Shown here: positions 1 to 18,807 of the stretch, one piece after another | Layout of the letters: every line of letters starts with the position of its first letter | Numbering within the stretch: position 1 is the first letter of the stretch | From: Stigmatella aurantiaca DW4/3-1 | GTDB lineage: Bacteria > Myxococcota > Myxococcia > Myxococcales > Myxococcaceae | DNA length: 64,000 nucleotides | Assembly: GCF_000165485.1 (NCBI RefSeq) | Contig: NC_014623.1 | Coordinates: 5,970,893 to 6,034,892, forward strand | Reading direction: 5' to 3' | Program-made: the position numbers and the translations under genes | Notes under the pieces: model-generated | Database searches by the model: none | What the model was told of the DNA's origin: nothing | What the model saw: only the letters and a program-made list of their open reading frames with translations

Positions 1-1
1 G

Positions 2-1195
2 TCCGGGGCCCTGGCCGCGGCGGTGCTCGTCACCCTGGCGTGGAACGTCACGCAGAACGCCACCGGCCTGGATGCCTTCGCCCAAGGCGACTCTCACTCC
101 CCGGCGCCTTTCCAGGCGGGGCTCCTCGCCCTGGTGTTCGTCCCCTTCGCGCTGTTGCGCCGCTGGGGCCGCAACCGCATCCAGGACGAGGAGTGGGGAC
201 ATGGCGCACGGTTGCCGTGGGCGGTGCTCGCCGTCGTCCTCACCGTGCTCTGCCCTGGGGCGAGCTACCTCTTCGCCTGGCCGCTCCTGCTGGCCTTGCT
301 GATCCCGTACGCCCTGCGCCGCGGGGGGGACACCCCGTGGAAGGTGGGCCTGGTGCTCACCCTCGGGGGCGTTCCCTTGCTGCTGTTGATCACCTCCACC
401 CTGTACCCGCTCTCCTCGGCGCTCGGGCTCTCACTCGCGGGGGTGAGCCTGCTGCTTGCCTCCCTTGTCCTCGGACTGCTCCACCCCGCCCTGGCCTGGC
501 TGGTCCAGGGACGCTGGAACACCGTGGCGGTGGGGGCCTCGGCCGTGGGCGCCGTGTTCTTGCTCTCCGGCGCGGTGGCCGCAGGCCCCCGGGCGGATCG
601 CCCCTGGCCCGAGAGCCTGGCCTACTGGCTGGACCGGGATGGGAAACGGGCCTTCTGGCTGGCCCACGAGGACACGCACGGCGCCTGGGCGGCCCAATTC
701 CTGGGCGAAGCGCCTCCCGCCAAGCGCTTCGACGAGGCCATGCCCTGGCTGGAGACGGACGTGCTCTATCACGAGGCCTCCCTGCTCCCGCTGCCCTCCG
801 CCCGCACCCGCCGCGTCGCGGACGACCGCGAGGGAGACGTGCGCACCCTCACCCTCCAGGTGGACAGTCCTCCAGGGACGGCGGTGCTCCGGTTCAACCT
901 GCCTCCGCTGGAGTTCCTCGAGGTCCGGGTGGGCCAGACGCCCCTCCCCGAGGCCGTGCTCACCGCTGGACGCGCCGAGGGCGTCCGGATCGATTACTGG
1001 CAACCCCCTCGGGAAGGGCTCCCCCTGACCCTGAAGGTCCGCGGAGAGGCGCCCGTGCGCATGCGCTCCAGCACCATCTCCCTGAACATCCCCACCCTCA
1101 CCGAATCCCAGCGGCGGCCGCCCTCCCTCATGGCGGCCCCCTTTGGATTCGGCTTCAGCGACGTCACGGTCATCACGCAGACGGAGGCGCTGTGA
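2..1195 (+). CDS. M28-family membrane peptidase, C-terminal part (5' end outside window)
   Basis: The frame is open from the first complete codon at position 2, so the true start lies upstream. What is visible begins with about eight hydrophobic segments (to about residue 195) and ends with a soluble domain of about 200 residues. That layout matches the C-terminal half of membrane-anchored M28 zinc aminopeptidases; the metal-binding catalytic domain would be in the missing N-terminal half, so activity cannot be judged here. The stop codon overlaps the GTG start of the ABC transporter gene (GTGA), which implies translational coupling. The family call is recognition of the C-terminal style, not of catalytic residues. 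Confidence 0.6.
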   Translation, partial: SGALAAAVLVTLAWNVTQNATGLDAFAQGDSHSPAPFQAGLLALVFVPFALLRRWGRNRIQDEEWGHGARLPWAVLAVVLTVLCPGASYLFAWPLLLALLIPYALRRGGDTPWKVGLVLTLGGVPLLLLITSTLYPLSSALGLSLAGVSLLLASLVLGLLHPALAWLVQGRWNTVAVGASAVGAVFLLSGAVAAGPRADRPWPESLAYWLDRDGKRAFWLAHEDTHGAWAAQFLGEAPPAKRFDEAMPWLETDVLYHEASLLPLPSARTRRVADDREGDVRTLTLQVDSPPGTAVLRFNLPPLEFLEVRVGQTPLPEAVLTAGRAEGVRIDYWQPPREGLPLTLKVRGEAPVRMRSSTISLNIPTLTESQRRPPSLMAAPFGFGFSDVTVITQTEAL

Positions 1196-3027
1196 GCATC
1201 CCCTCAGGGCCTCTCCCCTCCCAGGGGCCATCCCTGGCCGAGGCCCCCGCTCCCCTGGTCCACGTCGCGGCCTCCCAGGTGCCGGTGTCGGTGCGAAACC
1301 TGGTCCGCACCTTTCCCGGCGAGCCCCCGCAGGTCGCCAACGATCAGCTCTCCTTTGACATCCACCGGGGCGAAATCTTCGGGCTGCTGGGGCCCAACGG
1401 CGCGGGGAAGACGACGCTGGTCATGCAGCTCATGGGGCTCATGCGCCCCACGTCGGGCCACATCCAGATCGAGCACGTGGACGTTGTCCGCCATCCGGAC
1501 GCGGTGAAGTCGCTGATCGGCTTCCTGCCCCAGGGAGAACTGGCGCTCAACTACCTGGAGGTGGAGCGCGCGCTGCACTACACGGGACGGTTGAGGGGCC
1601 AGAGCGAGCACGACGCCCGCGTCCAGACCCGGCAGATCATCGAGCAGCTCGGCCTGGGCAGCTTCCGGAGCCGATACATCAACCACCTCAGCGGCGGCAT
1701 GGCGCGGTTGGTCGGCTTCGGCATGGCGCTGATGGGCCAGCCCCGGCTGCTCATCCTCGACGAGCCCACCAACGAGCTGGATCCGCACAAGCGGCGCCTC
1801 GTCTGGGACACCCTGGATCAGCTCAACCGGGAACAGGGCCTCACCTGTCTGCTCGTCACCCACAACGTGCTGGAGGCCGAGCGGGTCATCCACCGGCTGG
1901 CGGTGATGGACCGAGGCCGCATCATCGCGCTCGGCACCCCTCAGGAGATCAAACAGCGGGCGGGCGGCCACGTCCGGCTGGAGCTCCAGCTCAAAGAGGG
2001 CCTGCGGCTGGAGGACCGGGAGCTGGAGCAGCTTCGCAGCCACGGCCAGGTCATCGAGGTCCGAGGCGGCCATTACCGGACCTACCTGGAGCCGCAGCAG
2101 GCCGCCTCCACCAGCGTCGAACTCATCCAGTCCCTGGGCCTGGAGCGGGTGGAGGACCTCCGGCTCGCCCCTCCCTCGCTGGAGGAGGTGTATCTGGATC
2201 TGGACCGCAACGCGGCCCGGGAAGTTCCCACCCTGCCTCCCCCTCCACGCCTCGAGGAGGCGTCCCCCAGCCCCCACCGTCTCCGGCACCACCTCGTGGC
2301 GCTCAAGTACCTGTGGATCGCGCACATGCTGGAGGTGCGGCACACCTGGGCATGGAACGCCGTCTTCTCCCTCTTCATGCCGGTGGCGATGGTGTTCGGC
2401 CTGTCACGCATCGGCCTGGGCCTGAGCGACCGGACCAGCCTGCTCTACATCGTCAGCGGGGCGGCGGTGTTCTCGGTGGCCACCGAGGGAATCCTCACCT
2501 GTGCGCAGCGGGTGGCCATGATGCGCAAAGACGGGCGTCTCATCTATTACGCCTCCCTTCCCATCGGTCAGGCGTCCTTCGTCGCCTCCATCATCCTCTC
2601 CCGGGTGTTCATCGTCTTCCCCGGGGTGGTGACCCCCTTGCTCGCCGGCTGGCTGCTGCACGGCATCCGCCTGGAGCTGAGCCCGTGGCTCCTGGTCGTC
2701 ATCCCCCTCACCGCGCTGTCCTTCTCGGGGGTGGGCATGATGCTGGGCTCCCTCATCCGCGATCTGGACCTGCTGGTGGTGATCACCAACGCGCTCATCT
2801 CCGTGCTGCTGCTGGCCGCGCCCGTGTTCATCCCCGAGGAGGCCCTGCCCTCACCCCTGCGGGCGATGGGATTTCTGTTGCCCCCAACCTATGCCGCGGA
2901 CGCGCTGCGCAGGGCGCTGGATGGCGCCGTGGACGTCCGCTTCGCGGTGGATCTGGCGGTGCTGGCCGCGATGACGCTGGTCAGCTTCGTGGGCCTGTCC
3001 CGCTGGATGCGCTGGCGCGTGGACTGA
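1192..3027 (+). CDS. ABC transporter, ATPase and ABC-2 permease fused in one chain
   Basis: This 611-residue protein has an N-terminal ATPase with Walker A GPNGAGKTT (67-75), signature LSGGM (166-170) and Walker B LLILDEPTNELDP (from 186). An ABC-2-type membrane domain with about six hydrophobic segments follows (about 365-611). The order resembles DrrA-DrrB or NodI-NodJ exporters fused into one polypeptide, so an exporter acting as a homodimer is the natural reading; the substrate is unknown. The GTG start at 1192 overlaps the stop of the upstream peptidase. The same frame is open far upstream of 1192, but that stretch has no family features and lies inside the peptidase gene. A strong hairpin follows the stop. 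Confidence 0.88.
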   Translation: MSIPSGPLPSQGPSLAEAPAPLVHVAASQVPVSVRNLVRTFPGEPPQVANDQLSFDIHRGEIFGLLGPNGAGKTTLVMQLMGLMRPTSGHIQIEHVDVVRHPDAVKSLIGFLPQGELALNYLEVERALHYTGRLRGQSEHDARVQTRQIIEQLGLGSFRSRYINHLSGGMARLVGFGMALMGQPRLLILDEPTNELDPHKRRLVWDTLDQLNREQGLTCLLVTHNVLEAERVIHRLAVMDRGRIIALGTPQEIKQRAGGHVRLELQLKEGLRLEDRELEQLRSHGQVIEVRGGHYRTYLEPQQAASTSVELIQSLGLERVEDLRLAPPSLEEVYLDLDRNAAREVPTLPPPPRLEEASPSPHRLRHHLVALKYLWIAHMLEVRHTWAWNAVFSLFMPVAMVFGLSRIGLGLSDRTSLLYIVSGAAVFSVATEGILTCAQRVAMMRKDGRLIYYASLPIGQASFVASIILSRVFIVFPGVVTPLLAGWLLHGIRLELSPWLLVVIPLTALSFSGVGMMLGSLIRDLDLLVVITNALISVLLLAAPVFIPEEALPSPLRAMGFLLPPTYAADALRRALDGAVDVRFAVDLAVLAAMTLVSFVGLSRWMRWRVD

Positions 3028-3070: not shown

Positions 3071-4324
3071 TCACGCCGGGGCCGAGGGCGCGGCTTGCTC
3101 GACCCGGAGCAGCGACAGCGCCCTCGCCGCGTCGCCAAGCACCTGTCCGCGCTCGGGCCCGCTGGCGATGACATAGCCCAGCCGGTCCGTCGCGCTCTCG
3201 GGCGGGCGCAGCCGGGTCCCCGCCGCCTTGTCCACGGCCACCTGCCGGACGGTGCCCAGCCGGGAGGCCTCGTCCTGGCCCTCCACGCGCGCCAGCACGC
3301 CGGGACGCTCCGAGGTGATGAAGCGGATACAGGCCACATCCTGGCGCGTGTGCGTCAGGTCCACGGGCCGCCCCAGCATTTGATCCAGCATCGCCGAGAG
3401 CAGATCCACGCCGGTGGACAGCCGCACCAGCTCCGGAATCATCCCTCCCGCCAGCCGGGGGTTGATCTCGATGATGACCGGCCCCGCGGGCGTGAAGCGG
3501 ATCTCCGTGTGGGCCGGGCCGAAGTCAAAGCCCACCGCCGCGAGCCCCGCGAGCACGGCCTCCTCCAGCGCCCGCCGCCGCTCGGGCGGCAGGTCCGCCG
3601 GGAAGTCATGCCCCATCTCCACGAAGTACGGCGGCGCGGAGAGGTACTTCTGGGTCACCCCGAGCACGTGCGTGGTGCCATCGGCCAGCGTCATCGTCTC
3701 CACGCTGAACTCCGGCCCCTCCAGGAATGACTCCACGAGCACTTCCCCGTGCAAGGACTGGCCGCGCTCGTTGGCGGCGCGGGAGTGCAGGGAGCGGAAG
3801 TGCGCGAGCAGCTCCTCGGGTGTGTCCACCCGCCGCACCCCCGTGCTGCCGCTCTCGGCGGGAGGCTTCACCACACACGGAAAGCGCACCGTCTGGGCGA
3901 GCTGCGCCGCCTCGGCCTCGGAGGCGATGACGTGGAACTCAGGCCCGGGCAGCCCCGCCGCGCGCAGCAGGGCCCGCGCCTCGTGCTTGTTGTGGCAAGC
4001 CTGGGCCGCGCGAGGCTGGAGGTAGCGCAGGCCGTGCCGCGCCGCGATGGCCGCCACCGTGGGCACATAGAAGGTGGAGAAGGTGAGCAGCGCCGCCACC
4101 TTCCCCTCCCGCACCAGCCCATCGACACAGGCCTCCACGGCCGCCGCGTCGTTGGTCTCCACCTTCAACACCTTCAGCCCCGGGGCCTTGTTGCCCACCA
4201 GGAAGGGGTACTTCTCTGGCTGGTGGGTGATGAACGTCACCTGCTCGCCCTGGGCCAGCAGCCGCTCCACGGCCAGCCGGCCCGTCCCCGTGGTGTTGCT
4301 CTCGACGAAAACGAATTGATTCAC
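3071..4324 (-). CDS. ATP-grasp carboxylate-amine/thiol ligase
   Basis: A 417-residue ATP-grasp protein. Visible features are the ATP-binding lysine in CVVKPPAESGSTG (K153) and the metal-binding acidic set, E274 and EINPRLAGG (E286, N288). Family members activate a carboxylate as acyl-phosphate and join it to an amine or thiol, so this enzyme most likely makes an amide or peptide bond with an amino acid. It is the last gene of a five-gene leftward operon, 4 bp after the PLP enzyme gene, and starts with GTG at 4324. The context suggests it uses the amino acid produced by its neighbours, or supplies their substrate. The exact substrates cannot be read from sequence. Confidence 0.85.
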   Translation of the reverse strand: MNQFVFVESNTTGTGRLAVERLLAQGEQVTFITHQPEKYPFLVGNKAPGLKVLKVETNDAAAVEACVDGLVREGKVAALLTFSTFYVPTVAAIAARHGLRYLQPRAAQACHNKHEARALLRAAGLPGPEFHVIASEAEAAQLAQTVRFPCVVKPPAESGSTGVRRVDTPEELLAHFRSLHSRAANERGQSLHGEVLVESFLEGPEFSVETMTLADGTTHVLGVTQKYLSAPPYFVEMGHDFPADLPPERRRALEEAVLAGLAAVGFDFGPAHTEIRFTPAGPVIIEINPRLAGGMIPELVRLSTGVDLLSAMLDQMLGRPVDLTHTRQDVACIRFITSERPGVLARVEGQDEASRLGTVRQVAVDKAAGTRLRPPESATDRLGYVIASGPERGQVLGDAARALSLLRVEQAAPSAPA

Positions 4325-4328
4325 CTGC

Positions 4329-5459
4329 TCACTCCAGCTCCAGCGCGCGGGTCAGATCGCCGCTGCGCATCACGGACGGAGCGTAATACGGAACCGAGCC
4401 GTCGTGCGGCACGGCCGCATGGCTCCAGCGCTCGGCCACGTCCACGCCGTAACGGATGGGCACGGGCGCCGCCGCGGCCTCCACGCCGATCAGGTTGTGC
4501 TTGGCCAGGTACTCCCGCGAATAAATGGTCTCGCAGTAGCGGTCCCCCCGGTCCGGCATCAGCGCCACCACGTGCTGATCCGGCCCGAACTGCTCCGCCA
4601 GCCACGAGGCCACCACGTAGGCCGCTCCGGACGAGCCTCCGCCGAAGATGGACTCCCGCCGCGCCAGCTCGTGGCAGGCGTTGAACACCTCGCCATCCGA
4701 CAGCCAGTGCGCCTCGTCGATGACGCGGTAGTTGATGTTGCCCGCGATGATGCTGTTGCCGTGGCCGCTCTGGAGGCGCGGGCCGTTGGGCTGGTGGAAG
4801 ATGACCGAGCCCACCGCGTCCACCGCCACGATGCGCACCCCGGGGGCCAGCGCCTTGAGCCGCTCCGCCGTTCCCGTGAGGGAGCCACCGCTGCCCACGG
4901 TGCCCACCAGCGCCGCGATGCGGGGTCCGAGCGCATTCACCAACTCGTGCGTCATCGTCTCCGTGTACGCCCCGGGGTTGCTGGGCGAGTCGTACTGCCG
5001 CGGCCAGAACGCGCCCGGATTCTCGTGGAGCACCTCCCGCAGCCGCACCAGCCGCGAATGCTGCCAGCCACCCGTTGGGTGGTAGGTTTCGACGACGTCC
5101 ACCTGGGCCCCGAAGGCGCGCAGCTTGTTGAGCAGGCCGATGTCGATGCGCGGATCGGTGACGATGATGACCTTGTAGCCCTTCACCGCGCCCACCCGGG
5201 CCAGCCCCTCCGCCATGGTGCCCGAGGAGCTCTCCGCGATGACACCGCCCGGCTTGAGCTGGCCGCGGGCCTCCGCGTCCTCGATGGCCTTGAGCGCAAC
5301 GCGGTCCTTCATCTGGCCGGGCATGGCCAGCTCCAGCTTCGCCCACAGCTGGGCCTTGGGCTGGGACACCGCCCGCCCCTTGAGCGCCACCAAGGGGGTT
5401 TCCTTCATCAAATCCAGGACCGACGCGGCCTTCTTCAGCATGGGAGGTTGTGTGTTCAT
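4329..5459 (-). CDS. Cysteine-synthase-like PLP enzyme (beta-replacement)
   Basis: A 376-residue fold-type II PLP enzyme. The Schiff-base lysine lies in PGQMKDR (K51), the substrate-binding loop is ESSSGTMAEG (76-85), and the glycine-rich phosphate loop is GTVGSGGSLTG (186-196). Cysteine synthases replace a beta leaving group; homologues in natural-product pathways use O-phospho-Ser/Thr and a nitrogen nucleophile. Beside a threonine-kinase-like gene and a lyase-like gene, a role in forming a 2,3-diamino acid is the best inference. The ATG at 5459 was chosen because the frame open further upstream runs into the lyase gene. It lies 7 bp after the lyase stop and has no clear Shine-Dalgarno, so coupling is likely. 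Confidence 0.85.
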   Translation of the reverse strand: MNTQPPMLKKAASVLDLMKETPLVALKGRAVSQPKAQLWAKLELAMPGQMKDRVALKAIEDAEARGQLKPGGVIAESSSGTMAEGLARVGAVKGYKVIIVTDPRIDIGLLNKLRAFGAQVDVVETYHPTGGWQHSRLVRLREVLHENPGAFWPRQYDSPSNPGAYTETMTHELVNALGPRIAALVGTVGSGGSLTGTAERLKALAPGVRIVAVDAVGSVIFHQPNGPRLQSGHGNSIIAGNINYRVIDEAHWLSDGEVFNACHELARRESIFGGGSSGAAYVVASWLAEQFGPDQHVVALMPDRGDRYCETIYSREYLAKHNLIGVEAAAAPVPIRYGVDVAERWSHAAVPHDGSVPYYAPSVMRSGDLTRALELE

Positions 5460-5466
5460 GGGATTT

Positions 5467-6981
5467 CTAAGCCGTCGAGGAGACACCCGCGGCGCTCGCC
5501 GCGGCCAAAGCTTCGTCCGCGGCCTCCAGCCGCGCCTTCCACCCCTGCACCCGTTGCTGGAGCCGCTCGCGCGCCTGCCCCAGCGTGGCCAGGTGGGCGC
5601 GGACCGCCTCGGGCGCGGGGCCGCCGCCATAGGCCGCGGCGCGCACACAGCCCTCTGGCTCCAGCACCTGCGCCAGCTCCGCCTCGTCCAGGGAGACCTC
5701 CCGGCCCAGCGTGGTGGCCAAGAGGGGCTCCAGCAGGCCGCGCGCCGCCTGGGGGGTGAGTTCCGGCTCGCGCTTGAGGTTCACCAACCGGCCCACCACG
5801 TCATGCGCGGTGCGGAAGGCGAGCCCATGCCGCGCCACGAGGTGATCCGCCAGCGCCGTCATGGTGGTGTCCTGGCCCACCAGGAACCGCCGCATGGGCT
5901 CCGGTTGGACGATGACGTTGGACATCAACAGCTCCATGAGCACCAGCGCCGTCCGGGCCGCCTCCAGGGCGGGCCACACCGGGGAGGTGGCTTCGGAGCT
6001 GACCTCCACGCTGTTGGTGAAGGACGTGCTCTTGAGCCCCATCAGCGTGTTCATCAGGAAGCCCGTGGCCTTCACGGCCTGGCCCCGGATGTTCTCCAGC
6101 ACGAAGGCATTGCGCTTCTGCGGCATGATGGAGCTGGTGCTCACCAGCTCGTCCGGCCAGCCCAGGAAGCCATAGGCCGAGCTTGCCCACGTTTGAAGAT
6201 CCGCGGACATCCGGGTGAGGAGCGTCCCCAGCAAGGCCAGCCCGCTGAGCACCTGGACCACGTAGTCCCGCGAACCCACCGCATCCAGCGAGTTGCCCAG
6301 CGGGCTCTCGAAGCCCAGCAGCTCCGCCACGATGGTGGTGTCGATGGGGAAGGAGGTGCCCACGCCCGCCGCTGCGCCCATGGGGCAGCGGTTCAGGGTG
6401 TCATAGGCCCCCGCGATCCAGTCGAGCGTCCGCAACAGCTCGGACAGGACCCCGCCCAGGTAGTGGCCGAAGGTGGCCGGCTGGGCCGGTTGCAGGTGCG
6501 TGAAGGCGCTCATCAACGTCTGCGCATGCGCCACGCCCAACCGCTCCAGCTGGCTGGCCAGCAGCATGCCCTGCCGCAGCACCTCCGCCAGGGCGGGCCT
6601 CAGGCGCATGCGCGTCACGGTGGCGTTGATGTCGTTGCGGCTGCGCGCCACGTGGGCCGCTCCGCCCACCTCGCCGCCCAGCCGGGAGATGTACTCCCCC
6701 TCATAGAGGAGGTAGAGCCCACGGTGGGAAGGCGGGGGTGGAAACAGCTCTTCGCCCGAGGCCAGGCGGTGCGCCAGCTCCCGGTTGAGCGACAGCAGGC
6801 GCGCGGCGGGCTCGGGCGCGAGGATGCCCCGGCGCGCGAGCATCACCACGTGGGCCGCGTCGATGCGCAGCAGGTGGGGAAGCACCTGCGCCCTGTCGGA
6901 AACGAAGTGCGGCTCGTACAGCAGCTCGAACAGAACGGGATGGGGGCCGCGCGCGAGCCGGCCAATGGCCTGAGCGCTCAA
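5467..6981 (-). CDS. Argininosuccinate-lyase-like enzyme (fumarase/aspartase superfamily)
   Basis: A 504-residue lyase with the superfamily regions SRNDINAT (114-121), THLQPAQP (161-168) and the catalytic-loop signature SSIMPQKRN (283-291). These are the parts that bind the substrate carboxylates and abstract a proton to release fumarate. It sits between a YbaK gene and a cysteine-synthase-like gene, not among arginine genes, so it is unlikely to be the housekeeping ArgH. Lyase homologues in diaminobutyrate pathways release fumarate from an N-substituted aspartate intermediate, and the same role is inferred here. The start appears to be TTG, overlapping the previous stop as TTGA, with GAGG 8 bases upstream. 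Confidence 0.85.
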   Translation of the reverse strand: MSAQAIGRLARGPHPVLFELLYEPHFVSDRAQVLPHLLRIDAAHVVMLARRGILAPEPAARLLSLNRELAHRLASGEELFPPPPSHRGLYLLYEGEYISRLGGEVGGAAHVARSRNDINATVTRMRLRPALAEVLRQGMLLASQLERLGVAHAQTLMSAFTHLQPAQPATFGHYLGGVLSELLRTLDWIAGAYDTLNRCPMGAAAGVGTSFPIDTTIVAELLGFESPLGNSLDAVGSRDYVVQVLSGLALLGTLLTRMSADLQTWASSAYGFLGWPDELVSTSSIMPQKRNAFVLENIRGQAVKATGFLMNTLMGLKSTSFTNSVEVSSEATSPVWPALEAARTALVLMELLMSNVIVQPEPMRRFLVGQDTTMTALADHLVARHGLAFRTAHDVVGRLVNLKREPELTPQAARGLLEPLLATTLGREVSLDEAELAQVLEPEGCVRAAAYGGGPAPEAVRAHLATLGQARERLQQRVQGWKARLEAADEALAAASAAGVSSTA

Positions 6982-7493
6982 GAGGCGGGCCTCGGCTCCG
7001 GCTCCGCCACCACATCGGCGACACGCGCGGCCGTGAGCCGGACGATGTCCTGTGGGGTGATGCGCAGCATGTGGTGCTCATCCCCTCCCCCGCCGAACAC
7101 AAAGGGGTGCTCAAGCACGCGGGAGTCCACCACCACGGAGACCTGGGTGGCATGTCCCACCGGCGGCACGCCCCCCACCGCATAGCCCGTGGCCCGCAGC
7201 ACCGTGTCAGGTGAAGCCAGCTTGAGCTGCGAGACGCCCGCCGCGGAGCCCACCTTGCCCGCGGAGACGCGCACATCCCCCGGGGCGATCGCCAGGACGA
7301 TCACCCCGCGGTCCTTCTTGCCCTCGAACAGGATGGACTTGACGATCTGCCCGGCGCTGACCCCCAGCGCGGCCGCCGCCAGGGGCACCGTGGGCATCTC
7401 CTGGCCGGGCCGGACCAGGGAGGCTTCCACCGTCTGCGTGGCGAGGTACTGCTTCAACCGATCGCTGCCTTCGTTGACCGCTGTGCTGCTCAA
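6978..7493 (-). CDS. YbaK/ProX-type aminoacyl-tRNA deacylase
   Basis: A 171-residue single-domain protein of the YbaK/EbsC/ProX family. The conserved lysine segment IVKSILFEG and the loop YAVGGVPPVGH are visible. Family members hydrolyse mischarged aminoacyl-tRNAs in trans. It lies in the middle of a putative non-protein amino-acid operon, which suggests it clears tRNA charged with the pathway product or an intermediate; this is inference. The start is TTG, overlapping the kinase stop as TTGA, and is supported by AGGAG 7 bases upstream. Its own stop overlaps the lyase start in the same way, so translation of the three genes is probably coupled. Confidence 0.85.
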   Translation of the reverse strand: MSSTAVNEGSDRLKQYLATQTVEASLVRPGQEMPTVPLAAAALGVSAGQIVKSILFEGKKDRGVIVLAIAPGDVRVSAGKVGSAAGVSQLKLASPDTVLRATGYAVGGVPPVGHATQVSVVVDSRVLEHPFVFGGGGDEHHMLRITPQDIVRLTAARVADVVAEPEPRPAS

Positions 7494-8995
7494 GTCTGAT
7501 CTCCTGCTGGCCTTCGGTGCGAGAGGTCCTGCACACCGGCGAGGCTTACGACATTGTCCATCCCCGCGGCGAGCACCCGCTGGAAGGCGGCGAAAAACAA
7601 CGGCACCGGCAGCACCGTGAGCGAGCCATCCTGGGCTTCATAGGTGACCTGCCCCGCCCCCAACCGCATGATCCGGACCCGGCGGACGTAGACATCCCCC
7701 TGGGAGACGAAAGCCGCCTCGAACAGCGCCTTCGGCAGCAGGCGAGGCACCGGGCTCACCCCCGCGACGCTGGCCTTGGGCAGGTACCGCACCCCGCCCT
7801 CCTCCTCGGAGAGCTTCGAGACGGTCATCTCCCACGCGTCGCCTTCTCTCAGCACCGGCGCGGGGTGAACCTCGAACAGCCCCTCCAGCAGCTCGGGGGG
7901 CTCCACGGCCCGCTTCCCATCCGGGTGCACGAAGACGCGGCGCCGCTCGGGCCCCTGCTCGAACTCGAGCACCACCCCACCCTGCACCGGAAACCGCGCC
8001 AGGGGCTCGCCCATCGTACCGAGGGACTGCTCCTGCGGCCGGGAGAGCCCTTCGCGGCTGCACTGCACGAGCCGTGTACCGCCCGAGATGAGCCGGTGGA
8101 TGCCCAGCAGCCGCCCAGGACCGGTGATCTCCTCGGCCCGCTGAGCGATGGAGGCCCCATCGTGCCGGGTCGGATCGAACATCAGCCCGAGCACCGTGCC
8201 GCTGTGGCCGCAGTTGATCCCCAGCACGCCCAGCTCGCGCGTGGCCCGCAGCAGCTCCTCCAGCCACGGCTTGTGCAACACCTCCTGGTGGAGACGCGCG
8301 CTGAGGGTGGCCCCCTCGGCGACGAGCACGGGCACCTGGCGGCGGAAGCCCTGCCTCACCAAGTCCACCGCGCGGAGCATCTGCGACTGGGACGCACGCG
8401 CATGTGCCCGGGCCCGCTCCCGGTCGAAGCCGAGCGTATCGACCTCGCCTCCCGTGTCGATGATCACGAACGCCAGCGGCGGGGGCGTCCCGAGGAACTC
8501 GAGCACCTCGCCCCGGATGTGATCATAGATGACCGAGCCCGGGTAGAAGAGCGCATCCGATGGCTCGATGTCCGCGGCGATGCGCGCCACCAGGTGAGGG
8601 GGCAACGTCTGCCCCAGCGCATCCGCGCAGGCATGCAGCGCGGCGGCCAGATCCGCCGTGCTCGACGCCAGCCCCTTGCTGCGGGGCACCGGGGAGTCCA
8701 CCCGCATCCGGGCCCCCAGGTGCTTCGCCCCCAGGGTCCGCAGCAGCAGGCTCACGGCCTTCATCGTCTTGCCGTAGTTGTGATCGGACTCGACCCGGAC
8801 GTCTTCCCATTCCGGCGAAAGCTCGATCGACACCTTGCTGTGGAGCTCGATGGGGCTCGTGATGAGAAAGTCTCGCCCCCCCAGCACTCCCTGTACCAGC
8901 TCTCCGCACGTCACCGGCGCCATGGCCATCGCTGAGCGGGTTTCAAAAACCTCATGCCCTAGCTGCCGCGCCGCTGAATTCAGCCCGGTTCTCAT
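7490..8995 (-). CDS. GHMP kinase, PduX-like (L-threonine kinase type) with C-terminal extension
   Basis: The N-terminal 300 or so residues match the PduX/threonine-kinase branch of GHMP kinases: APVTCGELVQG near the start, the ATP loop PRSKGLASSTAD (104-115), and the late motif NCGHSGTVLG. PduX makes O-phospho-L-threonine from ATP and threonine. PduX itself is about 300 residues; this protein is about 501 and carries some 200 extra C-terminal residues that I do not recognise. ATG 8995 was chosen; ATG 8929, just before the conserved segment, is an alternative, and the frame is open to 9064. It is the first gene of the five-gene operon. Phosphothreonine as a substrate for the downstream PLP enzyme is inferred. 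Cobalamin side-chain supply is the main alternative. Confidence 0.8.
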   Translation of the reverse strand: MRTGLNSAARQLGHEVFETRSAMAMAPVTCGELVQGVLGGRDFLITSPIELHSKVSIELSPEWEDVRVESDHNYGKTMKAVSLLLRTLGAKHLGARMRVDSPVPRSKGLASSTADLAAALHACADALGQTLPPHLVARIAADIEPSDALFYPGSVIYDHIRGEVLEFLGTPPPLAFVIIDTGGEVDTLGFDRERARAHARASQSQMLRAVDLVRQGFRRQVPVLVAEGATLSARLHQEVLHKPWLEELLRATRELGVLGINCGHSGTVLGLMFDPTRHDGASIAQRAEEITGPGRLLGIHRLISGGTRLVQCSREGLSRPQEQSLGTMGEPLARFPVQGGVVLEFEQGPERRRVFVHPDGKRAVEPPELLEGLFEVHPAPVLREGDAWEMTVSKLSEEEGGVRYLPKASVAGVSPVPRLLPKALFEAAFVSQGDVYVRRVRIMRLGAGQVTYEAQDGSLTVLPVPLFFAAFQRVLAAGMDNVVSLAGVQDLSHRRPAGDQT

Positions 8996-9106: not shown

Positions 9107-10852
9107 TCACCCCCGGTCCCGGCGAACGGTGACCTTCCGGCCCCTGAGTGTGGCCTGACGCAGCGCGGTGACGATCTGGTTGGCGTAGGCCTCGGGGACT
9201 TCCACCAACGAGAAGGTGTCGGCGATCTGGATGGCGCCCACCTGCGAGGACTCCAGCCCGGCCTCGCCGGTGATGGCGCCCACGAGATCCGCTGGGCGGA
9301 TGCCCACGCGCCGCCCGGCGCCGATGTACAGCCGGGTGATGTCCCAGTCGGGGGAGGTCCCGCGCCGTGGCGCGCCCTTCTCCGGGGGACGGGGCCGCTC
9401 CGAGGGCGGCGCCTCGGCCTTCCCACGCCGCTCGGGGGGAGGCGCGCCGCGCGAAGGCCGCTCGGTCCGCCCGCGCTTCTCGGAGGGCGGGGGCACGACG
9501 GGGATCTCCTCCTCGTTCTGGGCGTGCCCCTCGTCCCGGGCTTCCTGAAGCAGCTTCACGGCCGCGGCGGCCACCTCCATCACGTCGAACTCGGCGGCCA
9601 GCCCCTCGACCAACCCCCGGTAAGAGTCGAGCCCACCGGCCACCAAGGCCTCCCGCAACGAGGCCCGGGTGACTTCCAGGCGCTTGGCCCGCAGGTCGGC
9701 CACGGTCGGCACCGTGGCCACCTCGATGCGCTGGCCGGTGAGCTTCTCGATGTTGCGCAGCAGCCGGTGCTCCCGGGGCTCCACGAGGGTAATGGCCACG
9801 CCCTCGCGGCCGGCCCGGCCCGTGCGCCCGATCCGGTGCACATAGGCCTCGGGGGCATTGGGCACATCGAAGTTCACCACGTGGGACAGCCGGCTGATGT
9901 CGAGCCCCCGCGCCGCCACGTCCGTGGCCACCAGCAGATCCGCCGAGTGGGACTTCAGCTGCTTGATGACCCGGTCGCGCTGCTCCTGGCTCATGCCGCC
10001 GTGGAGCGCGTGCGCCCGCCAGCCGTGGCCATTGAGCGAGAGGGTGAGCTCGTCCACCTCGGTGCGGGTGCGGCAGAAGACGATGGCCGCCGTGGGGGCC
10101 TCCACATCGAGTACCCGGCTGAGCGTGGCCACCTTGAAGGCCCTCGGGACGATGTAAGCCGTCTGCCGCACGCGCGGCAGCTCGCCCGACTCCACCTTCT
10201 CCCGGGCAATGCGCACGCGCACCGGCTCGCGCAGGTGGCGCTCGGCGATGCTGGCGATGCGCGGGGGGAGCGTCGCGGAGAAGAGCGCGGTCTGCCGCTT
10301 CTCGGGCGTGGAGGACAGGATGGCCTCCAGATCCTCGGCGAAGCCCATGTCGAGCATCTCATCCGCCTCGTCGAGCACGACGACGCGCACCTGCTCCAGC
10401 TTGAGCGTCTTGCGCTGGAGGTGATCCAGCGCCCGGCCCGGCGTGGCCACCACCACGTCCACCCCTCGCTTGAGCACCCGGAGCTGCTGGCTGATCACCT
10501 GGCCGCCATAGAGGGGCACCACGCTGATGCCGAGCTTCTGGCCGTAGCGGTGAATGGCCTCGGCGACCTGCATGGCCAGCTCCCGCGTGGGCACGAGCAC
10601 GAGCGCGGAGGCGGTGAAGGGCGCGTGGGCCCCCGGGGTGATGCGCTGGAGCAGCGGCAGGGAGAAGGCCGCCGTCTTTCCCGTCCCCGTCGCGGCGATG
10701 CCCAGCAGGTCCTTGCCCTCGAGCAGGGGCGGAAGCGCGGCGCGCTGAATGGGCGTGGGCTCTTCGTACCCCAGGGCGCTGAGCGCCTCGACGAGGGGGG
10801 GCAGGAGGCCCAGCGACTCAAAAGTGTTATCGGCGGCGGAGGTTTCTTTCAC
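9107..10852 (-). CDS. DEAD-box ATP-dependent RNA helicase with DbpA-type RNA-binding domain
   Basis: A 581-residue DEAD-box helicase. It has the Q motif (GYEEPTPIQ), Walker A AATGTGKT, DEAD, SAT and the HRIGRTGRAGR motif, then a low-complexity Pro/Arg/Glu linker and a C-terminal DbpA/CsdA-type RNA-binding domain (the last 75 or so residues). Such proteins remodel rRNA or mRNA, often in cold adaptation or ribosome assembly. GTG 10852 was chosen because the conserved part begins right after it. An AGGAGG lies about 26 bases upstream without an in-frame ATG or GTG at normal spacing, so the start is uncertain. It is divergent from the histidine phosphatase gene and shares the direction of the kinase operon downstream. 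Confidence 0.93.
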   Translation of the reverse strand: MKETSAADNTFESLGLLPPLVEALSALGYEEPTPIQRAALPPLLEGKDLLGIAATGTGKTAAFSLPLLQRITPGAHAPFTASALVLVPTRELAMQVAEAIHRYGQKLGISVVPLYGGQVISQQLRVLKRGVDVVVATPGRALDHLQRKTLKLEQVRVVVLDEADEMLDMGFAEDLEAILSSTPEKRQTALFSATLPPRIASIAERHLREPVRVRIAREKVESGELPRVRQTAYIVPRAFKVATLSRVLDVEAPTAAIVFCRTRTEVDELTLSLNGHGWRAHALHGGMSQEQRDRVIKQLKSHSADLLVATDVAARGLDISRLSHVVNFDVPNAPEAYVHRIGRTGRAGREGVAITLVEPREHRLLRNIEKLTGQRIEVATVPTVADLRAKRLEVTRASLREALVAGGLDSYRGLVEGLAAEFDVMEVAAAAVKLLQEARDEGHAQNEEEIPVVPPPSEKRGRTERPSRGAPPPERRGKAEAPPSERPRPPEKGAPRRGTSPDWDITRLYIGAGRRVGIRPADLVGAITGEAGLESSQVGAIQIADTFSLVEVPEAYANQIVTALRQATLRGRKVTVRRDRG

Positions 10853-10970
10853 GGTGGACGGGCTTGTAGCACCGTCGATGCCTCCTGGGGGGAAGTCACA
10901 CCGCCCGGCGCCCGCCTCCCCCCGGCTCGCCATCCCCTCCTGGGGCAAGGTACTGTTGGAAACTGTCCCC

Positions 10971-11666
10971 ATGCCCCGCATCTCCCTCGTCCGCCACGGC
11001 CAGGCCTCCTTCGGAAGCGACCGGTACGACCGCCTCTCCGCCCTGGGAGAACGCCAATCGGTCCTGCTGGGCCAGCACCTGCGGCGCATCGGCTTCCACG
11101 CCGATGCATGGCTCAGCGGCTCCCTGGACCGGCAGCGCTCCACGCTCGCCGCCGTGCTCCGGGGGCTGGAAGTGGCCTCCTCCACGGACTTCCACGAGGG
11201 GTTCAACGAGTATGACCACGAGGCCATCCTCGGCGCCTACCTGCCCCGGGTGATGGCGGACCGGGGGCTCACCCCCCAGGAGCTGAATCCCCTGCTCGGA
11301 GACAACCGCTTGTTTCAAGGCATCTTCGCCCAGGTGATGAAGCACTGGATCGACGGCACCCCACACGAGCGCCCCCCCTTCGAGACGTGGAAGGCCTTCC
11401 AGGCCCGCATCCACGCCAGCCTGGAGCGGCTGGCCCACTCCGGTCACGAGCGCATCGTCGTCGTCAGCTCGGGAGGCCCCATTTCGCTCGCCGTGCAGGC
11501 GGCCCTGGACCTGTCCATCGAGAAGACCCTCGCGCTCAACTGGAGCATCTACAATGCCTCGGTCACCGAGCTGAAGATGCGGAAAGGCGAGCTGCTCCTG
11601 GCCGGCTTCAACAACGTGGCCCACCTCCAGCTCGCCGGTGAGGAGGGGCTGCTCACGTACCGCTGA
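10971..11666 (+). CDS. Histidine phosphatase family protein
   Basis: A 231-residue protein opening with the phosphohistidine motif LVRHGQAS (R8, H9) and carrying a second conserved histidine in the late VVSSGGPI region, as in the phosphoglycerate-mutase-like superfamily. Members transfer or remove phosphate through a phosphohistidine; substrates range from sugars to proteins, and nothing here settles which. The ATG at 10971 directly precedes the motif, as is usual. The gene is divergent from the RNA helicase and convergent with the DUF6232-like gene, so it is probably monocistronic. Confidence 0.85.
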   Translation: MPRISLVRHGQASFGSDRYDRLSALGERQSVLLGQHLRRIGFHADAWLSGSLDRQRSTLAAVLRGLEVASSTDFHEGFNEYDHEAILGAYLPRVMADRGLTPQELNPLLGDNRLFQGIFAQVMKHWIDGTPHERPPFETWKAFQARIHASLERLAHSGHERIVVVSSGGPISLAVQAALDLSIEKTLALNWSIYNASVTELKMRKGELLLAGFNNVAHLQLAGEEGLLTYR

Positions 11667-16816: not shown

Positions 16817-18232
16817 ATGCGGATTGCCATCATCGCGACCTATACCCACCCCACCCGGCGGCGAATCAAAGAGCCGTCCATCATGCAGTCGGCCGTACCG
16901 GAGCTCATCGCGGGCTTGTGCCCTCCCCACGCGGAGATCGAGCTCTTCAACGAGAAGGAGCAGGACATCCCGCTCGACCGGCACTGGGATCTCGTCTTCT
17001 TCTCCTATCTGCACTCCTACTACGAGCACACGAAGGTGCTCTCCACGCTCTTCCGCCAGCGCGGCATGGTGACGGTGGCGGGCGGCCGCCACGCGGGCCA
17101 CTTCGCCGATGACGCGGCCAACTACTTCGACGCCGTCATCACCGGCGAGCCCGAGCCCAACGTCCCCGCCCTCATCCAGGACTTCGAGAAGGGGCAGATC
17201 CAGAAGCGCTACAGCTTGGCCTCCTGGGGCCCCGACGCCATCCAGCCGTACCGGTATGATCTCATCGACTTCAAGAACAACCGGGTGCGGCTCGCGGGCA
17301 TCGAGGCCTCGCGCGGCTGCCCCTTCCGCTGCAACTTCTGCGTGCTCACCGGCCACGAGCGCTACCGCTACCGGTCCATCCCCACGGTCATCGAGGAGAT
17401 CCGCACGAAGATGACCTGGAACAAGAACTTCTTCGGGGCGATGGACAACGTCTTCGTCTTCCTGGACAACAACCTGGGCGGCTCGCCCAAGTACCTGCGC
17501 GAGCTGTGCGAGGCGCTCATCCCCCTGAAGAAGATCTGGGGCTGCGCGCTCACCTTCAACATCCTCAAGGACGAGTCGCTCGTGAGGCTGATGGCCCAGG
17601 CCGGGTGCCGCTACATCTATACCGGCATGGAGTCGCTCAACCCGGAGTCGATCAAGGCCATGAACAAGGGCCAGAACAAGTTGAGCGAGGTGGACGAGGT
17701 CATCCGGCGCACCTTCTCGCATGGCATCGTCCTGTCGTTCGGCCTGATCGTCGGCTCGGACGGAGACACCAACGAGTACCTGGAGAAGCTCCCCGAGTAC
17801 CTGTCGGACCTGAAGTACTTCGCGGTGACGTTCCTGGGAATCGTCTGCCCCTACCCGGAGACGCCCTTCTTCCGGGAAGTGCAGTCCGAAGGCCGCCTGC
17901 TGCCGGGCACCATCAGCCGGGACTATGACGGCTATACCCTGTGCCACCGGCCGAAGAACCTCCACCCCTCCGAGGTGGTGGAGCACTTCATCCGGCTGTG
18001 CGGCACGCTGGGCACGCTGCCCAACATCGTCCGGCACTATGGGGCGTGGCTGATGCGCAGCGACATGCCGCGCTACCGCAGCACCCTGTTCTTCTCGGGG
18101 CCGGAGATCCTCAGCATCCGCAACCCGGTGAAGAACAAGGACCGCCGCTACATCGCCGGCATGGATCCCCTCGAGGATTGGGATGCCCAGCAGATGAAGA
18201 CCCTGGGCCTGCTGCCGCAGCGTCTCAGCTGA
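16817..18232 (+). CDS. B12-binding-type radical SAM protein
   Basis: A 471-residue radical SAM enzyme. The N-terminal 150 or so residues have the Rossmann-like layout of B12-binding-associated members, including VTVAGGRHAGHF. The [4Fe-4S] motif is CPFRCNFC (C168, C172, C175), and TGMESLNPESI is a typical family segment. No DxHxxG cobalamin motif is obvious, so cobalamin binding is uncertain. The substrate is unknown: there is no peptide precursor, tailoring gene or biosynthetic neighbour, and the gene stands alone, divergent from the two-component system. It probably modifies a lipid, cofactor or small molecule. Confidence 0.82.
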   Translation: MRIAIIATYTHPTRRRIKEPSIMQSAVPELIAGLCPPHAEIELFNEKEQDIPLDRHWDLVFFSYLHSYYEHTKVLSTLFRQRGMVTVAGGRHAGHFADDAANYFDAVITGEPEPNVPALIQDFEKGQIQKRYSLASWGPDAIQPYRYDLIDFKNNRVRLAGIEASRGCPFRCNFCVLTGHERYRYRSIPTVIEEIRTKMTWNKNFFGAMDNVFVFLDNNLGGSPKYLRELCEALIPLKKIWGCALTFNILKDESLVRLMAQAGCRYIYTGMESLNPESIKAMNKGQNKLSEVDEVIRRTFSHGIVLSFGLIVGSDGDTNEYLEKLPEYLSDLKYFAVTFLGIVCPYPETPFFREVQSEGRLLPGTISRDYDGYTLCHRPKNLHPSEVVEHFIRLCGTLGTLPNIVRHYGAWLMRSDMPRYRSTLFFSGPEILSIRNPVKNKDRRYIAGMDPLEDWDAQQMKTLGLLPQRLS

Positions 18233-18276
18233 GCGTTCCGTGGGGCCGGTCGTCTGCCGAGGACAGGAGGAGGCAA

Positions 18277-18299
18277 GCCCTCGTTGCTGAATCGAGGGC
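18277..18299 (+). terminator. Hairpin after the radical SAM gene
   Basis: GCCCTCG and CGAGGGC form a perfect 7-bp stem with a 9-base loop, 45 bp after the stop codon. No U-tract follows, so it is a weak intrinsic terminator at best. Confidence 0.4.
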
Positions 18300-18369
18300 G
18301 CTCACCACCTTATGCGCCAAACGATTTCACTTCCCGGGGTCCTCTTCACGGATTCCAAGGAGCTACGTC

Positions 18370-18807
18370 ATGGCCCACACGGACATCGATACGCTGAACT
18401 CCTTCCTGCGTGGTGAGCTGTCCGCCGTGGAGACCTACCGGCAGGCGAGCAAGCACATCAAGAGCGACCTTGCCCGGACGGAGCTGGACGCGTGCATGCA
18501 AGACCACGAGGCCCGCGTCGCCGCCATCAAGGAGCGCATCCAGAGCCTGGGAGGCCGCCCCTCCGAAGATTCCGGGCTGTGGGGCACCTTCGCCAAGGCC
18601 GTGCAGGGCAGCGCGGACCTGCTGGGCGAGAAGGTCGCCATCGATGCGCTGGAGCAAGGCGAGGACCACGGTCTGGCGGACTACAACCGCGACGTGGACA
18701 AGCTCCACGGTCCCGCGCGCACGTTCGCGCGCCAACAGCTGTTGCCGGCCCAGAAGCATACGCATGCCCGGATCAGCCGTCTGAAGCACAACCCGAACCT
18801 GCACTGA
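18370..18807 (+). CDS. DUF2383/PA2169-like four-helix bundle protein
   Basis: A 145-residue, wholly helical, charged protein with no signal peptide. It begins MAHTDIDTLNSFLRGE and has repeated Glu/His positions of the ferritin-like style (EAR, HGLADYNRD). It resembles DUF2383 (PA2169-type) proteins, which are stress-linked and of unknown function. An AGGAG lies 7 bases before the ATG. It is convergent with the adenylyl-cyclase-like gene, with a small hairpin between them. Confidence 0.7.
   Translation: MAHTDIDTLNSFLRGELSAVETYRQASKHIKSDLARTELDACMQDHEARVAAIKERIQSLGGRPSEDSGLWGTFAKAVQGSADLLGEKVAIDALEQGEDHGLADYNRDVDKLHGPARTFARQQLLPAQKHTHARISRLKHNPNLH

Follow-up and report, generated by a model that had tools for sequence, protein, structure and literature searches.

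Positions 5970893 to 6034892 of the Stigmatella aurantiaca DW4/3-1 genome (G000:C1, a single contig of 10,260,756 bases) make up the 64,000-nucleotide window analysed here, and a compact operon of five minus-strand genes lies near its left end. The original prediction, made from the letters alone, read this operon as a route from threonine to a diamino acid that an ATP-grasp ligase would finally couple into a free dipeptide-like metabolite. All five open reading frames are confirmed at their predicted coordinates: a kinase, a YbaK protein, an argininosuccinate lyase (ASL)-like lyase, a pyridoxal 5'-phosphate (PLP) enzyme and an ATP-grasp protein. Their claimed spacing, with neighbours overlapping or at most 7 bp apart, is also confirmed, with 4-bp overlaps at the kinase/YbaK and YbaK/ASL junctions, a 7-bp gap between the ASL and PLP genes and a 4-bp gap between the PLP and ATP-grasp genes. 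In window coordinates, the genes are:

7490..8995, minus strand: PduX-like GHMP kinase, probable L-threonine kinase (501 aa, ATG start; Pfam, PduX match, tree)
6978..7493, minus strand: YbaK/ProXp-type aminoacyl-tRNA deacylase, probable trans-editing enzyme for self-protection (171 aa, TTG start; Pfam, fold match to 2cx5)
5467..6981, minus strand: argininosuccinate-lyase-like enzyme, probable fumarate-releasing step (504 aa, TTG start; Pfam, NCBIfam, catalytic loops)
4329..5459, minus strand: predicted SbnA-like PLP beta-replacement enzyme (376 aa, ATG start; NCBIfam, motifs, tree)
3071..4324, minus strand: predicted ATP-grasp enzyme of the L-amino-acid-ligase type (417 aa, GTG start; Pfam, NCBIfam, tree, fusions in relatives)

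Enzyme families and conserved motifs

The kinase, PLP enzyme and lyase belong to the families first proposed for them. The kinase carries a GHMP_kinases_N domain (Pfam, 4.9e-11), aligns over 57% of its length with Salmonella PduX (3e-23) and shares the KGxASS and IEPxD motifs of the PduX family. It differs from the PduX of cobalamin metabolism in its length of ~500 aa with a C-terminal extension, and in standing in an operon that contains no cobalamin genes. Residues ~310-501, the C-terminal ~190 residues (window 7490-8068), have no Pfam match, and among 23 kinases compared only the copies from the myxobacterial genomes G090 and SSF41 match its length. The fold model of the kinase is poor (mean pLDDT, the predicted local distance difference test score, 56). 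A kinase that serves cobalamin alone had been named among the outcomes that would refute the original prediction. Two relatives of the kinase do sit in cobalamin loci, beside or near a threonine-phosphate decarboxylase gene. The decarboxylase model finds 15 matches in the S. aurantiaca genome, none over its cut-off (best 197.7 versus 290.55 bits), and the operon lacks cobalamin genes; a cobalamin-only role is therefore unlikely rather than excluded.

The PLP enzyme has a PALP domain (Pfam, 7.4e-52), and its best NCBIfam match is the SbnA family (TIGR03945) at 270.7 bits, under the cut-off of 349.95, so it is not filed as a member, although it may function in the same way. The PLP lysine and the GG----R motif are present (MKDR and GGWQHSR, aligned with MKDR and GGYLMTR of SbnA), and DRGDRY is common to both proteins. 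The substrate loop reads SSSGT in the operon enzyme, with Thr where the STSGN of SbnA has Asn. S/T-S-G-T occurs in 23/23 PLP rows from the full sets and gene pairs described below; nine of ten control PLP proteins have Asn at this position, and the tenth, from Rhodococcus (L072), has Thr.

Pfam assigns Lyase_1 (8.6e-37) and ASL_C2 to the lyase, whose catalytic loops are intact: TSSIMPQKRN, with the MPQKxN motif, and FTHLQPAQP, with TH. PQKxN is kept in all 20 set lyases; five rhizobial ones read SQ instead of TH. A second ASL in the S. aurantiaca genome (L089) is 32% identical to the operon lyase and groups in a tree with copies from four other myxobacterial genomes.

The ATP-grasp protein combines ATP-grasp_4 (3.6e-26) with LAL_C2 (3.1e-19), the domain pair of L-amino-acid ligases, and its best solved relative is the L-amino acid ligase BL00235. 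A single NCBIfam model, PRK02186, covers both proteins: the ATP-grasp protein aligns with positions 3-395 (343 bits), the lyase with positions 411-877 (331 bits).

YbaK carries the tRNA_edit domain (PF04073, 8.3e-29), and K52 and GGVPP are invariant in 7/7 operon copies. A model built from seven sequences (pLDDT 81) has 2cx5 as its top fold match (E 1.3e-14), a structure identified as ProXp-x, active on aminobutyryl-tRNA (PMC11295145). A paralogue elsewhere in the S. aurantiaca genome is 38% identical. The original prediction assigned YbaK no role; it may reasonably be regarded as a putative guard against tRNA mischarging by a threonine-derived amino acid.

Recurrence of the gene set

Searches of Myxococcota genomes match the kinase in nine of 146 at E 0.001, four of these more weakly than 1e-6, and the PLP enzyme in 57 of 195 at E 1e-50, eight at 70% identity or above and the others at 35-38%. 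Kinase, PLP enzyme, lyase and ATP-grasp gene are all present in 7/8 myxobacterial loci, and YbaK also in 7/8; such co-occurrence is what the original prediction had proposed as a check on itself. The five genes stand in the same order in G090 (90-96% identity) and in the metagenome-assembled genome (MAG) Myxococcaceae SSF41 (G067; 48-70%), and because this order recurs in both, the arrangement is not a product of chance. Elsewhere the order YbaK-ASL-PLP-ATP-grasp-M28 peptidase is found in G072 and G571, with the kinase ~32-34 kb from the PLP gene, and in G569, with the kinase directly after the peptidase. The set is spread over some 40 kb in G112 (YbaK-ASL at 8253275, kinase at 8279094, PLP-ATP-grasp at 8291442), so that the kinase-to-PLP distance across G072, G571 and G112 is 12-34 kb. 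G572 has ASL-PLP-ATP-grasp with NRPS (nonribosomal peptide synthetase) genes. A scan of genome contigs, built on a three-sequence alignment and two narrow patterns, confirmed six loci, four of which have PLP-like genes at 33-37% only and no other set member. Beyond the myxobacteria, a 3.9-kb MAG contig filed as Acidimicrobiia carries PLP (65%) and ATP-grasp (53%) genes preceded by an apparent ASL end, seen by eye; among 396 genomes of that phylum, this genome alone has a match at E 1e-65.

Myxobacterial-locus copies cluster together in the PLP, ASL and ATP-grasp trees. In the kinase tree, whose root is not fixed, the S. aurantiaca, G090 and SSF41 copies stand apart from those of G112, G072, G571 and G569 and share a branch with two cobalamin-locus kinases on long branches. 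A single kinase lineage in the seven myxobacterial loci is rejected by an approximately unbiased (AU) test (p 2.75e-65), for a group named post hoc from the tree and with long branches. Kinase replacement and ancient paralogy are both possible explanations of this topology; in either case the slot is occupied by two distinct PduX-like lineages, in keeping with threonine phosphorylation.

The set also recurs on plasmids of other bacteria. Eighteen annotated plasmid-record regions, picked for matching one of the proteins and with incomplete gene tables, include 12 with all four enzymes and none of these 12 with YbaK; the YbaK query has one plasmid match, in Leptolinea (E 1e-15). Full sets occur in Streptomyces globosus and Kitasatospora NBC_00039, where the PLP enzyme is fused to the ATP-grasp protein, in Streptomyces ITFR-16, NBC_01351 and NBC_01707, in Azospirillum oryzae and Sulfuriferula, and, with an ATP-grasp/ASL fusion, in Sinorhizobium americanum, Mesorhizobium AR02, M. 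japonicum, S. meliloti R14 and Rhizobium gallicum. The five streptomycete sets sit with NRPS or adenylation genes. The stretches read of Azospirillum, Sulfuriferula and the rhizobia show no NRPS annotation, within those incomplete gene tables, and Mesorhizobium AR02 has a type I polyketide synthase (PKS) gene ~4 kb beyond the set. The remaining regions hold a kinase and PLP pair without ASL or ATP-grasp (two Mesorhizobium regions, L106 and L107), PLP alone (Rhodococcus), a lyase (30%) and ATP-grasp gene (41%) side by side (Streptomyces NBC_01591, L070), or the kinase in a cobalamin locus (two regions).

Five rhizobial plasmid regions (L068, L069, L076, L077 and L109) carry kinase, PLP enzyme and ATP-grasp/ASL fusion. 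An Lrp/AsnC regulator gene follows the set in L069 and L076, and a second ATP-grasp relative lies nearby in L077 and L109.

The ATP-grasp gene adjoins or is fused to the PLP gene in 20/21 loci that have both (eight myxobacterial loci, the Acidimicrobiia contig and 11 of the 12 plasmid sets); the exception is Streptomyces NBC_01351, where the lyase gene lies between them. Fusions join it to the PLP enzyme in two loci and to the lyase in five. Because it travels with the other three also beside NRPS genes, and because it is fused to either of two partners, the ATP-grasp enzyme appears, by its gene associations, to be a core pathway member and not a special final ligase; the last-step coupling originally assigned to it is not supported. 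If fusions mark adjacent steps, the enzyme would act between the PLP and lyase steps or on a shared intermediate.

Neighbouring NRPS genes

The original prediction noted no NRPS or PKS genes. This is true of the window itself; in the ~80 kb examined to its left there are three NRPS genes, the closest of which stops 1.1 kb short of window base 1. These are a plus-strand frame of 2445 aa (5962453-5969787), a minus-strand frame of 3231 aa and a minus-strand protein of 1794 aa that begins with an AMP-ligase-like region (DIP2-like AMP domain) and continues with condensation, adenylation and thiolation domains (C-A-T). The start of the 1794-aa protein is taken for a fatty-acyl-AMP ligase, and the product would carry an acyl group. 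A stand-alone operon with a free dipeptide-like product is not supported in view of these genes, which adjoin the operon in an arrangement conserved in relatives. Between the nearest NRPS gene and the operon lie two plus-strand genes:

1..1195, plus strand: M28-family peptidase gene, C-terminal part, with its start left of the window (89% identical to the G090 copy; PF04389 at 3.1e-45 on the G090 copy)
1192..3027, plus strand: ABC (ATP-binding cassette) transporter with both its ATPase and its permease on a single chain, a candidate for export of the NRPS product (homologues in G572, 70%, in the same place, and in G090, 93%)

The block of NRPS, peptidase, transporter and operon is kept in G090 (89-96%) and G572 (51-70%). 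Homologous NRPS genes occur in G072 and G571 at 45-53%, SSF41 (31-42%) and G112 (44-46%) have NRPS-like matches close to the module, and homologues of the M28 peptidase adjoin the module in other myxobacteria. The G072 homologue of the 2445-aa NRPS has a PduX-like GHMP kinase domain fused to its C-terminus (2979-aa frame, L062:7225-16161, minus strand); the G571 kinase match falls inside a 2917-aa open frame that also has an NRPS match.

An acidic substrate code of the DVWEFNADD kind appears in the adenylation (A) domains of 7/7 myxobacterial loci whose NRPS region was read. S. aurantiaca and G090 each have three DVWEFNADD A domains, G572 has DVWEVTADD and DVWEFNADD, G072 and G571 have DVWEINADD, SSF41 has DIWEVTADD and DIWQPTCDI, and G112 has DIWEINTDD, in a 5-kb gap fetched after the other codes had been seen. 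The 27-kb contig of G569 yielded no A domain. Acidic residues occupy positions 278, 330 and 331, from which a basic side chain is inferred; codes for ornithine (Orn) and diaminobutyrate (Dab) share E278 and D331. Three S. aurantiaca A-domain segments in two genes (5948198, 5951396 and 5964565) show no difference over 114 residues, which suggests that they were duplicated recently or homogenised by gene conversion.

When 193 Myxococcota genomes were searched with an A-domain segment (E 1e-35, at most 24 candidates scored per genome), nine matched. Five of these, at 64-100%, all have the module (G000, G090, G572, G072 and G571). The other four, at 50-54%, are another locus of G112 (DVWQINMSC), G093 (DIWELTADV), G121 (DIWTVTADD) and G145, whose code could not be placed; at this threshold SSF41, G569 and the domain of G112's own cluster are not among the matches. 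The code of Streptomyces NBC_01351, DIWQSTAVC, is loosely similar.

In the 2445-aa NRPS, the second A domain appears to be split (L092 ~17121-18785, plus strand) by an extra few hundred residues that have no Pfam match, look GNAT-like by eye and resemble a stretch in the G072 homologue. Further left, at G000:C1:5894525-5941639, lie more PKS/NRPS-like frames of lower third-position G+C. On the other side, a gene for a DEAD-box helicase with a DbpA domain (window 9107-11137, minus strand) stands directly upstream of the operon.

Proposed route and alternatives

The operon is modestly favoured here as the precursor arm, probably for 2,3-diaminobutyrate, and self-protection arm of a cationic lipopeptide NRPS cluster. 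The PduX-like kinase would convert threonine to O-phospho-L-threonine, the SbnA-like enzyme would exchange the phosphate for the amino group of aspartate, and the ASL-like lyase would remove fumarate to leave 2,3-diaminobutyrate. This chemistry, as originally proposed, is plausible, given a PduX-like kinase and the repeated co-occurrence of the four catalytic genes. The ATP-grasp enzyme is placed beside the PLP and lyase steps on account of gene order and the two kinds of fusion; it may work on an intermediate or product of the route, and the candidate reactions are that it activates one of the carboxylates on the aspartate adduct or forms a temporary dipeptide. The three acidic-pocket A domains would load the diamino acid into a cationic lipopeptide; the ABC transporter would then export this product, and the M28 peptidase might trim it. 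YbaK, in turn, would hydrolyse tRNA wrongly charged with either the diamino acid or aminobutyrate formed as a by-product.

Known systems offer partial parallels. In the SbnA/SbnB route to the 2,3-diaminopropionate of staphyloferrin B, the second enzyme frees the diamino acid, as proposed for the operon lyase. The likeness lies in a fold-type-II PLP enzyme related to SbnA, whereas the operon has its own kinase, an ASL-type lyase in place of SbnB and an extra ATP-grasp gene. The host of the editing enzyme FthB makes fluorothreonine. FthB is a ProXp-ST1-related deacylase of the INS superfamily that acts on fluorothreonyl-tRNA, whose amino acid is an unnatural analogue of threonine (PMC11295145); the operon YbaK is instead nearest to ProXp-x among solved structures and stands in an NRPS-linked operon. 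DabABC of friulimicin and laspartomycin, compared by description only, shares a proposed origin of 2,3-diaminobutyrate from threonine, an NRPS cluster and a cysteine-synthase-like enzyme, and differs in that DabB is described as VioK-like (PMC4052310). Gausemycins contain 2,3-diaminobutyrate, and one gausemycin-like cluster is reported with cysteine-synthase-like and ASL-like genes (PMC12471526). For Streptomyces roseosporus, an npsG homologue is proposed for 2,3-diaminobutyrate, and its deletion is reported to have abolished mureidomycin activity (PMC4572928). Among the listed matches in the open-licence PMC literature, none describes the cluster or gene set, and no paper there was found with any of six A-domain code strings.

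Several observations weigh against a 2,3-diaminobutyrate supply route. The A-domain codes depend on the GrsA-fragment ruler with which they were read. Acidic codes occur without a module-like PLP match in G093 and G121, which rules out their being exclusive to module-bearing genomes, and the stretches read of S. globosus, Kitasatospora, ITFR-16 and NBC_01707 show no such code, so that four of five streptomycete loci rule out an acidic code in every NRPS that accompanies the set. The lyase narrowly exceeds the NCBIfam argH cut-off (283.0 versus 279.5 bits), the operon kinase is at least as good a match to cobalamin-type PduX as to the kinases of the plasmid sets, and the ATP-grasp step has no firm place in the route. 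The set is also incomplete in places: G572 has no kinase match genome-wide and no YbaK in the stretch read, and the NBC_01591 region has neither kinase nor PLP enzyme at E 1e-8. The INA-Ac-5812 gausemycin cluster is reported without PLP and ASL genes (PMC12471526), and the 2,3-diaminobutyrate of mureidomycin is ascribed either to threonine and ammonia (PMC3179956) or to DabA/DabB-like enzymes, with the amino group from a DabB-like deaminase (PMC4052310), rather than to a combination of kinase, aspartate and lyase.

Serine as the substrate is a further point of this kind, judged unlikely: O-phosphoserine and aspartate would give 2,3-diaminopropionate, with aspartate and the lyase replacing SbnB and its donor. 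The SbnA family that best matches the PLP enzyme is named as a 2,3-diaminopropionate biosynthesis protein (PMC3179956), and ProXp-ST enzymes edit Ser- and Thr-tRNA (PMC11295145). The kinase, by contrast, is close to PduX types annotated as L-threonine kinase or found in cobalamin loci, and the ProXp-x nearest to YbaK among solved structures acts on a four-carbon residue.

It is distinctly doubtful that the pathway retains the aspartate adduct, or uses its lyase for synthesis, to make an aminopolycarboxylate chelator, a metallophore like ethylenediaminedisuccinate (EDDS) or aspergillomarasmine. The lyase aligns with 6rx8/6g3d, presumably EDDS lyase, nearly as well as with true ASL (1.7e-50 versus 8.7e-53), and four rhizobial loci, Azospirillum and Sulfuriferula carry the set with no NRPS annotated in the stretches read. 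Sets from myxobacteria and streptomycetes, however, sit with NRPS or adenylation genes, the myxobacterial ones with an acidic-pocket A domain, and the operon lyase keeps TH where the 6g3d chain has TQ, though rhizobial lyases read SQ. Least credible is a separate dipeptide made by the ATP-grasp enzyme beside accidentally close NRPS genes, a reading to which LAL_C2 and BL00235 lend themselves and which NRPS genes near the module in G090, G572, G072, G571, G112 and SSF41, together with the kinase-NRPS fusion of G072, speak against.

More tentatively, the four enzymes may form an unrecognised, widely shared amination route, either linked to NRPS genes or free of them, as on rhizobial plasmids and in Azospirillum. 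In this reading a threonine kinase and beta-replacement with aspartate would be followed by an ATP-grasp reaction on the adduct and then by release of fumarate, and the myxobacterial version would have acquired a tRNA-editing enzyme of its own, since the free product is put onto tRNA by mistake.

The operon is a real, conserved module, whose most likely role is to supply a lipopeptide cluster with its diamino acid and to provide the accompanying protection. If so, it would offer a set of genes with which 2,3-diamino acid supply can be tested, lead one to expect a cationic lipopeptide from a myxobacterial group that has been studied intensively, and represent a tRNA-editing enzyme recruited as the self-protection gene of an NRPS cluster. 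The four-gene set on rhizobial plasmids points to an amino-acid-like metabolite there.

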